A stretch of DNA of 64,000 nt from Rhodotorula mucilaginosa (taxonomy: Eukaryota; Basidiomycota; Microbotryomycetes; Sporidiobolales; Sporidiobolaceae), in assembly GCA_034406715.1 (NCBI GenBank), contig CP137869.1, positions 1,364,001 to 1,428,000 on the forward strand, written 5' to 3'. The notes beneath the pieces are model-generated. The model saw nothing but the letters and a program-made list of their open reading frames with translations. It had not been told where the DNA came from and searched no databases. Shown piece by piece: positions 61,700 through 63,646 of the stretch. Positions within the stretch are counted from its first letter, which is position 1. Every line of letters starts with the position of its first letter. The translations under genes were made by a program, and so were the position numbers.

Positions 61700-63646
61700 A
61701 TGGCTGCCACCTACACCGGATTCAAATCCTCCGTCGCCGCTGCGGCGGAACACGTCAAACCGACTGTCGCTCAGACTCTCACGAAACACGCCGAGTTGCC
61801 TCTCTCGCCGCCGTCGAGTGCGGGATCCGATGTCGATGCTGCCGAATTCGAGAAGCGCTACACCGAGGACTGGAATGGCCAGTACCGCTTTGCCCCGATC
61901 AAGGAGCACATTGTCAGCCGCGGTGAGTTTCCCAACCTCCTTTTCGGGAATTTTCGGCGACCTTGACTCTTACGTCGGAAATTTGCCCATGCTGCAGCCA
62001 TGACTTCGCGCTACGGCAAAGACCTCTACGACACTGCCATCTCGGATGTCGTCATCGGTGCGTCGGTATTTCTGTTTCCTGCCGACGAAGAGGGAGCTGA
62101 CCGTGGTATCTCGTCGTCAGTCGGAGCCGGTTCGGCCGGTCTTTCCGCCGCCTACACGCTCGCCAAGGAGCGTCCCGACCTCCGCATCACGATCCTCGAG
62201 GCGGCGGTCGCCCCCGGCGGTGGAGCCTGTGAGTCTTTTTCCGAGACAAAGCCCCCGAGATGGAGGAGCTGACTCGAAATACGGGGCGCAGGGGTCGGCG
62301 GACAGCTCATGTCGGCTATGGTGGTCCGCAAGCCCGCCCACCACTTCCTCCAAGAGGTCGGAGTCCCGTTCGAGGACGAAGGCGACTATGTCGTCGTCAA
62401 GCACGCCGCGCTCTTTACGAGCACGGTTCTGTCCAAGGTTCTCCAGGTGCGATGGTCGTGGTTCCGGAATGCAATCGAAGGCAGTGCCACCCTTACTTGA
62501 TGCCCGCGAGCGCTTGTTGGGAAGGATGGTGCTGCCTGATCTACTTGCACACGCAGCGCTGCGTTCACTCGCTTCGCCTCGCCATTTTCGACCCCGACTT
62601 ATGCCGACAAATCGACCTCGACCTCGACCTCGACATGCCGCCGACGACATCGCTGCCCTCGTACCTGAGGGCATCAAGGCGTAATCGTCGGGTCCAACGG
62701 CCGAGATCAAGCAAACCGGCGCCGCCCTCTTGACTTTACGAGTTCAATGGACATGGCTGAGAAGACGGTCAAGAGCTGAACGTGATAATGCACGCGTAGC
62801 CATTGCAACGATCTCGTAAGCAACCCCCCTCGCAGTCTCCCTCAGCTGATGCACTCCTTTGCTTTCCCTTTTTTTTCGCCCTCTCTTCGTCGACTTCCCG
62901 ACTTTGCAATTTCGATCGCCTTTTTCGACTTGATCGCCTCTCCGACTTGTTCCGACTCGACTCTGGATCGACTCTTCAGTTCCCCAACGTCAAGCTTTTC
63001 AACGCTGTCGCCGTCGAAGACTTGATCACTCGCCCCGATATCCTCGCCGATGAGCCGGGCAAAGTTCGCGTCTCGGGCGTCGTCACCAATTGGACTTTGG
63101 CAACTCTCGCCCATGGTCTTCAGAGCTGCATGGACCCGAACGTGATCGTCGCGCCTATCGTCCTTTCGTTCGCCGGTCATGAGTGAGTTCCGACCCTCCT
63201 TAGTGGTAATGGTAACTGACTCTCCCCTTTTGCAGTGGCCCCTTCGGTGCCTTCTGCGTCAAGCGCCTCGTCGCCACCGGACATCTCGAGGCCCTCGGCA
63301 ACATGCGCACGCTCGACATGCGCTCGGCCGAAGATGCCATCGTCAATCAGACTCGTTCGTGTCTTCTTCTTTGGTCTCTTCGGCTCCCTGGATAAATCCC
63401 GCTGACTTTTCTGCACGCGACGCAGGCGAGATCTTCCCCGGCATCATCACCGGCGGTATGGAGCTCTCGGAACTCGACGGCGCCTCTCGCATGGGCCCGA
63501 CTTTCGGCGCCATGATGGCCTCGGGGGTCAAAGCTGCCAAGACGGCGATCCAGCTCCTCGACCGCCTCGAAGTCGAAGAGGGCGAAGTCGTCGGATGGAA
63601 GAAGGACGCCTGGAAGAAGGACGCCGAGTCGGGTCTTCAGCTTTGA
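61700..63646 (+). CDS. THI4: Thiamine thiazole synthase (suicide enzyme)
   Basis: Seven exons: 61700-61922, 61998-62057, 62121-62228, 62292-62446, 62980-63182, 63236-63354 and 63426-63646 (362 aa). The dinucleotide fold reads [16 protein letters not shown], then [20 protein letters not shown]. The sulfur-donor cysteine is kept: C232 in [12 protein letters not shown] corresponds to yeast Thi4 Cys205, which gives its sulfur to the thiazole and leaves dehydroalanine, one turnover per protein. The conserved end has GHDGPFGAFC and [13 protein letters not shown]. Substrates are NAD and glycine. Six introns: five are 62-75 nt, while intron 4 (62447-62979) is 533 nt and holds a putative TPP riboswitch. 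The N-terminus is Ala/Ser/Pro-rich, without a clear transit peptide. Confidence 0.97.
62702..62816 (+). promoter_or_regulatory. Putative TPP riboswitch aptamer in THI4 intron 4
   Basis: In order: P1 5' strand CGAGATC (62702-62708), P2 5' strand ACCG (about 62715), a variable P3 region, the invariant CTGAGA (62757-62762), P2 3' strand CGGT (62766-62769), a GAGCTGAA element like the GAACCTGA junction, then P4 CGTG-ATAATG-CACG and CGTAG (62781-62799), and P1 3' strand GATCTCG (62810-62816). CTGAGA, ATAATG and CGTAG in this order and spacing match the TPP aptamer. Fungal THI4 and NMT1 introns are known sites for it. A GTAAG 5' splice site begins at the last base of P1. The exact P2/P3 folding is my estimate. 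Confidence 0.75.

Follow-up and report, generated by a model that had tools for sequence, protein, structure and literature searches.

A probable TPP riboswitch in an outsized coding intron of Rhodotorula mucilaginosa THI4, with a proposed role in splicing control

Why should one intron of a fungal thiamine-biosynthesis gene be so much longer than all of its neighbours? The question arises at the THI4 (thiamine thiazole synthase) gene of Rhodotorula mucilaginosa, which lies at 61700-63646 of the window analysed here, a stretch of 64,000 nucleotides (nt) from contig CP137869.1 (positions 1,364,001 to 1,428,000 of the forward strand); coordinates are those of the window, and all features described in it are on its forward strand. 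Seven coding exons (61700-61922, 61998-62057, 62121-62228, 62292-62446, 62980-63182, 63236-63354, and 63426-63646) join into an open reading frame (ORF) without inner stops that encodes 362 amino acids (aa), and the introns between them are, in order, 75, 63, 63, 533, 53, and 71 nt long. Intron 4 (62447-62979; phase 0, GT...AG) is 7 to 10 times the length of each of the other five. An initial annotation of this DNA had correctly delimited the 533 nt intron and described its neighbours as far shorter, although they range from 53 to 75 nt and not from 62 to 75 nt, and had placed within it a riboswitch for thiamine pyrophosphate (TPP). We think it likely that intron 4 is a TPP-sensing off-switch acting on splicing, and the riboswitch that it contains is probably real, functional, and of a known type.

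The spliced product matches the Pfam Thi4 family at 2.7e-101 and is identical at 360 of 362 residues to R. mucilaginosa protein JCM8115_006370; the others among the best 120 of 2742 proteins found are at most 78% identical. In an alignment of 26 of these 120, all of them predicted proteins, the residues at the exon 4/5 junction (KVLQ/FPN) are contiguous in all 26 with no insert between them, which supports removal of the whole 533 nt in the productive mRNA. Cys232, in the motif QSCMDP, is likewise invariant (26/26), and we take it from the alignment to be the sulphur-donor cysteine, presumably equivalent by its motif to Cys205 of the yeast enzyme. The part played by yeast Cys205 as the active-site cysteine is treated in passages of PMC4215014. 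The R. mucilaginosa protein thus combines Thi4 family membership with an active-site cysteine, as a suicide thiazole synthase should. Plant and fungal THI4 enzymes are consumed after one reaction, according to a passage of PMC8454699, and with a single-use enzyme control of its synthesis would be plausible on cost grounds. Another cysteine, Cys257 (GAFC, exon 6), was first considered a special active-site residue and is carried by only two of the 26 aligned proteins; we do not regard it as the sulphur donor, a role given to the invariant Cys232. Residue 257 is cysteine in R. mucilaginosa and Phakopsora, and serine, alanine or glycine in the other 24.

The covariance model of the Rfam TPP family (RF00059), proposed as a check by the initial annotation, matches 62706-62819 from end to end (model positions 1-105 of 105) with 31.1 bits, at an E-value of 0.0018 when all 4227 Rfam families are searched against 3 kb and of 0.00285 when this one family is searched against the whole genome (20.35 Mb in 19 contigs). 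With an outer helix added, the putative aptamer occupies 62702-62816, and each of the 25 pairs listed for the canonical fold and this helix is Watson-Crick; this and all of the pairing analysis below concern one sequence. The helices are P1 (62711-62714/62803-62806, GCAA/UUGC), P2 (62715-62718/62766-62769), P3 (62721-62723/62755-62757), P4 (62775-62777/62798-62800), and P5 (62781-62784/62791-62794). The perfect 7 bp helix 62702-62708/62810-62816 had been taken to be P1 itself; the helix stands, but as an outer extension of the model's P1, from which a 2x3 internal loop divides it.

Section 5 of PMC5882874 gives as recognition motifs GAGAU, GCG in J4/5, UAAU in L5, and two G residues 18 bases apart, and nearly all of these are found. 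The pyrimidine-recognition element CUGAGA is at 62757-62762, where the next base is A, so that GAGAU reads GAGAA and differs by one base. The UAAU motif is in the AUAAUG of loop L5 (62785-62790), GCG of J4/5, the pyrophosphate-recognition element, is at 62794-62796, and G62778 and G62796 have the 18-base spacing. CTGAGA, ATAATG, and CGTAG (62795-62799) accordingly do follow one another in TPP-aptamer order, as first reported, except that ATAATG had been assigned to a P4 hairpin and is the loop on stem P5.

The aptamer in intron 4 is one of only two RF00059 matches in the genome at E <= 10, a search in which 49 of 783 first-look candidates were scored. The second (L001:1501-1594, which is G000:C7:480294-480387) reaches 35.6 bits with GAGAU intact, and is upstream of exons with a match to Pfam AA_permease_2 (PF13520), apparently in an early intron or the leader of an amino-acid permease gene. 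This fits a known class, as amino-acid transporters with TPP riboswitches are described as widespread in Basidiomycota (PMC5882874, section 5) and, in a passage of PMC11683625, as the most prevalent TPP-riboswitch group there. That both matches are at expected gene classes, one biosynthetic and one a transporter, is stronger evidence than either score. A simple pattern, CTGAGA...TAATG...CGNAR, was also tried as a genome-wide discriminator and rejected, with three matches against 2 + 2 in the reversed control; the third of these (L004) has no RF00059 match.

Several observations weigh against a functional aptamer. The full-length match scores well below the RF00059 gathering score of 54.3 bits, so that the default Rfam scan of the window, being limited to matches above the cut-off, reports nothing, and a genome search with RF00059 at E <= 0.001 does not report it either. 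A passage of PMC11683625 states that RF00059 performs poorly on fungal aptamers with long P3 regions, typically >60 nt, an excuse that applies only in part to a P3 region of 37 nt. The aptamer stretch has only a small advantage in folding energy over its shuffles (z-score -1.11; 32 of 200 fold as well), and when 62700-62818 is folded without constraint, P1 survives in the minimum-energy structure but P2-P4 are rearranged. Under unconstrained folding the probabilities of P1, P2, and P3 are 0.00 in two long transcripts, and that of P2 is 0.00 in all four transcripts folded. Across these, the aptamer is less favourable than the free ensemble by 4.5 to 11 kcal/mol: the price of imposing it together with the outer helix is about 11 kcal/mol in 62400-62990 (-194.6 versus -183.5), about 10 in 62292-63182, about 5 in 62600-62860, and 4.5 in 62690-62860. 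Energies computed for entire introns predict only poorly how an RNA folds during its transcription, but such as it is, this result speaks against the aptamer.

How might an aptamer at this position act on THI4? The pattern GT[AG]NG occurs in intron 4 only at 62447 and 62816, one on each side of the aptamer. The first, donor S1 (62447-62452; CAG/GTGCGA), is the productive one, required for the full-length ORF; the second, candidate donor S2 (62816-62821; CTC/GTAAGC), is directly behind the aptamer, and both would share the acceptor AG at 62978-62979. The GTAAG at 62816 had been noted in the initial annotation, and its pair of donors with a common acceptor at 62979 holds to the extent that both are present as candidate sites. 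The piece from S1 to S2 is 369 nt, a multiple of three, with several in-frame stops, the first being UGA at 62498-62500. Retention of the intron and use of S2 are therefore alike in their predicted product, a 199 aa stump of 182 THI4 residues plus 17 intron codons that lacks Cys232, and translation thereby agrees with the expectation that mis-splicing would truncate the enzyme. In sequence this agrees with the layout called Type III in having two candidate donors and an in-frame stop that lies between them and upstream of the aptamer.

We propose that at low TPP, with the aptamer not closed, the 533 nt intron would be removed from 62447 to 62979 and the 362 aa enzyme made. At high TPP the ligand would bind the aptamer, P1 and the outer helix would close, productive splicing from 62447 would drop, and the RNA would either keep the intron or be spliced from 62816. 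With either outcome translation would run through the 17 intron codons to the UGA at 62498-62500, giving the stump without Cys232, and the mRNA encoding it would probably be targeted for decay. The aptamer match, the intron, the two donor-like sites, and their common stop are what the DNA itself provides. TPP binding, the sign of the response, and the effect on splicing we infer from fungal precedents, in which the switch is off at high TPP (passages of PMC5997356 and PMC7404189, and section 7 of PMC5882874). In a thiamine test in R. toruloides, a member of the same genus, fragments of the THI4 and THI5 promoters behaved constitutively (passage of PMC5073140), which is in keeping with control inside the gene without demonstrating it.

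A coupling between aptamer and splice sites could involve S2, with whose G+1 the P1 extension ends. When the aptamer and outer helix are enforced, the unpaired probability of U62817 rises in the four transcripts from 0.51, 0.26, 0.40, and 0.40 to 0.92, 0.99, 1.00, and 1.00, and that of G62816 falls from 0.03, 0.03, 0.14, and 0.14 to 0.00; the exon-side bases of S2 and its G+1 are then paired. With the aptamer core alone enforced, U62817 is 0.84 to 1.00 unpaired and G62816 0.04 to 0.07, and 62819-62821 are mostly paired in both states in the two long transcripts. In these models a closed P1 does not simply bury S2, and S2 is not clearly exposed either. A rather doubtful elaboration of the off-switch is that S2 is built into the closing helix, such that TPP-driven closure of P1 swaps donor partners: the P1 3' strand and S2 would leave the S1 region or the P3 loop and pair within P1. 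If so, this would be a basidiomycete coding-intron THI4 switch with its regulated donor behind the aptamer, and the short-splice mRNA would retain the aptamer.

One possible form of the off-switch, which we advance tentatively, is donor competition by sequestration as in NMT1, with regulation acting on S2: the P3 loop at 62735-62742 would hide S2 in the absence of TPP, and closure of P1 with TPP would free U+2 to G+5 and redirect splicing to this donor. This candidate anti-donor complements 62813-62820 through seven Watson-Crick pairs and one G-U, and the 8 bp complement, which was also found as an inverted repeat (I2), gains two more pairs past a U-U mismatch. It excludes the outer P1, 62813-62816 being common to both, it is part of the minimum-energy fold of 62690-62860, and the opening of U62817 on enforcement, from 0.26-0.51 to 0.92-1.00 unpaired, recurs at all four transcript lengths. 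Yet that opening is mostly the loss of a local pair with 62808, and A62818-G62820 do not open in this way in either long transcript. The anti-donor pairs themselves reach a probability of at most 0.14 over eight transcript lengths, rounding to 0.00 in five. Pairing with S2 is equalled by 104 of 1000 sequences when the P3 region is shuffled, and by 261 of 1000 when the inner aptamer is. Pairing of P4-P5 with a donor, as in NMT1, was tried and rejected (767 of 1000 shuffles as good for S1 and 329 for S2), as was the best partner that S2 has in any upstream part of the intron (380 of 1000). A complement of S2, CTTTACGAG, occurs in exon 4 as well, but tells us nothing because the sequence there is under coding constraint.

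We regard it as similarly uncertain, though possible, that there is no donor choice and that control is at the branch site or by retention, the TPP-bound aptamer hindering spliceosome assembly so that the intron is kept. The only branch-site-like CTNAY downstream of the aptamer is CTGAT at 62846-62850, which starts 30 nt past the aptamer; the distance from its A is 33 nt to S2 and 130 nt to the end of the acceptor. It stands at the start of a pyrimidine-rich run of 132 nt without AG (62846-62977) ahead of the acceptor. In four of the other five introns there is a CTGAC whose A precedes the intron end by 16-20 nt, whereas intron 4 has none near its end; the exception, intron 1, has no match to this pattern. 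There is also a precedent in Candida parapsilosis DUR31, where a passage of PMC5997356 describes more unspliced RNA with thiamine and a second donor that is little regulated. Against retention, the accessibility of 62849 hardly differs between the two states, and an AG-free run as long occurs in 8.3% of composition shuffles; on both strands of the window, 9 of 8273 such runs reach this length.

Long-range looping, as in NCU01977 (Type II), we consider unlikely. Here the first 29 nt of the intron would pair without TPP with 62802-62818, drawing S1 near the acceptor, and TPP would take the P1 3' strand into P1, leaving S1 remote. The candidate alpha element at S1 (62448-62475) complements 62802-62818 through segments 62448-62452, 62454-62459, and 62470-62475, giving partners to an unbroken stretch of 17 nt in the P1 3' strand, at -15.9 kcal/mol, and both the location and the sign are right. 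With 40 nt around S1 set against 62808-62823, 39 of 2000 shuffles do as well, but with 40 and 80 nt counted from the start of the intron the numbers are 100 and 251 of 2000, and shuffling the S1 side or the P1 side gives 288 and 417 of 5000. Tiles as good number 75 of 3530 in the window and 63 of 1742 among overlapping THI4 tiles, S1 tiles included. For the five outer pairs that were tested, the probability is 0.00 in each of the four transcripts containing both sides, and the helix as drawn also covers S1 from +2 to +6. Moreover, Type II introns are of 650-900 nt and in urea-transporter-family genes according to passages of PMC5882874, and this one is of 533 nt in THI4; a passage of PMC5997356 gives 602 nt for NCU01977. 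Were looping true, a biosynthesis gene would be using the long-distance mechanism.

More structure than in shuffles is found in the upstream half of intron 4, which favours looping in that it may shorten the effective distance from S1: 62447-62701 has a z-score of -2.46, and a stable hairpin within it, at 62479-62537 (-28.7 kcal/mol), has one of -3.16, each equalled by 1 of 200 shuffles. This hairpin begins 32 nt downstream of S1 and encloses the UGA stop. An Rfam mir-5681 match over 62477-62541 (18.3 bits against a cut-off of 88) is taken as a chance label for this hairpin. A perfect 10 nt inverted repeat, CTTGATGCCC/GGGCATCAAG, at 62496-62505 and 62669-62678 with 163 nt between the arms, competes with the hairpin and could fold the upstream half of the intron. 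None of the candidate coupling helices is established or statistically convincing on this single sequence.

That the aptamer is decayed or a chance resemblance in a long intron, with no function, is quite improbable. Its sub-threshold score and weak folding z-score would be explained, but the end-to-end match, nearly all of the recognition motifs, the expected gene class, its being one of two matches in the genome, and the perfect added 7 bp helix all argue for a real aptamer. Very improbable indeed is the scheme of the initial annotation, in which a closed P1 buries S2 and TPP favours S1 or exposes a long leader: G62816 is paired as the last outer-helix base (0.00 unpaired when aptamer and outer helix are enforced), as that scheme expects, but even without enforcement its unpaired probability is no more than 0.03-0.14 in the four transcripts, U+2 becomes more open at all four transcript lengths, a leader is out of place in the middle of a coding region, and the sign is wrong for feedback on a thiamine-making enzyme, because TPP stabilises P1 and would thus favour the productive donor 62447 at high TPP, the reverse of fungal feedback.

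Intron 4 further holds three copies of TCGACCTCGAC-like repeat units at 62588-62634. Elsewhere in the genome, NMT1/THI5 (PF09084) gave no match at E <= 0.001, in a search that introns can split. Two weak matches at about 0.009 fail that cut-off, neither locus having a TPP match, and by motifs in their translations one may be a HIS1-type protein and the other another substrate-binding-like protein. A missing clear NMT1/THI5 match would be in keeping with a yeast able to make the thiazole but dependent on a supply of the pyrimidine half, within the limit that introns set on the search.

How does this intron compare with the systems already described? An R. mucilaginosa THI4 TPP riboswitch, TPPsw-THI4, is mentioned in PMC11683625 (2024), and with the same gene and the same or nearly the same species (360 of 362 residues) the aptamer described here is very probably that one. 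The mention found is a single sentence, and the passages of that paper that we draw on give no coordinates, intron position, or donors. It was the only paper found in a literature search on Rhodotorula with TPP riboswitch, or with THI4 and riboswitch; among those found for Rhodosporidium with riboswitch, judged by title or the start of the abstract, none concerns the intron 4 aptamer.

Of all riboswitch classes, only that for TPP is known from algae, plants, and fungi (PMC5882874, abstract); in the papers cited here, the fungal examples that have been tested are from ascomycetes. At high TPP the NMT1/THI5 switch frees a second donor, and NCU01977 loses a long-range pairing that favours the first (passages of PMC5997356 and PMC7404189, and section 7 of PMC5882874). 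The Neurospora NMT1/THI5 and THI4 switches (Type I) resemble our proposal in having an aptamer in an intron, donor choice, and an off state at high TPP, but their introns are in the 5' untranslated region (UTR) with upstream ORFs. The initial annotation had drawn the contrast with 5' UTR introns, which is not new: passages of PMC5997356 already describe TPP switches in coding introns with a stop between the donors. N. crassa NCU01977 has a coding intron of several hundred nt (602 there) and a premature stop with downstream donors, and here too the P1 3' strand may find a partner in the S1 region, though without statistical significance; that gene encodes a transporter, not THI4. C. parapsilosis DUR31 shares the coding intron, the two donors, and the stop between them, and there thiamine lowers productive splicing, yet both donors precede the riboswitch, the gene is a transporter, and the intron is of 351 bp (passages of PMC5997356).

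Intron 4 also shares features with Type III as described in section 7 of PMC5882874: an internal intron, two donors with an in-frame stop between, and an acceptor just before the next exon. The length of 533 nt exceeds the 200-400 nt given there, and the second donor here is behind the aptamer, so that the short-splice product would keep it. THI4 intron 4 is probably a further case of a known switch type, coding-intron TPP switches being already known in NCU01977 and DUR31, and the second donor directly behind the aptamer may be what differs from the described layouts, which does not amount to proof of novelty. Such a switch could account for the lack of a thiamine response from a Rhodotorula THI4 promoter on its own, and it would offer a compact thiamine-controlled intron in a genus with genetic tools. 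A basidiomycete case in a coding intron of THI4 would also show which of the mechanisms, donor hiding, looping, or retention, serves in a layout different from those described.

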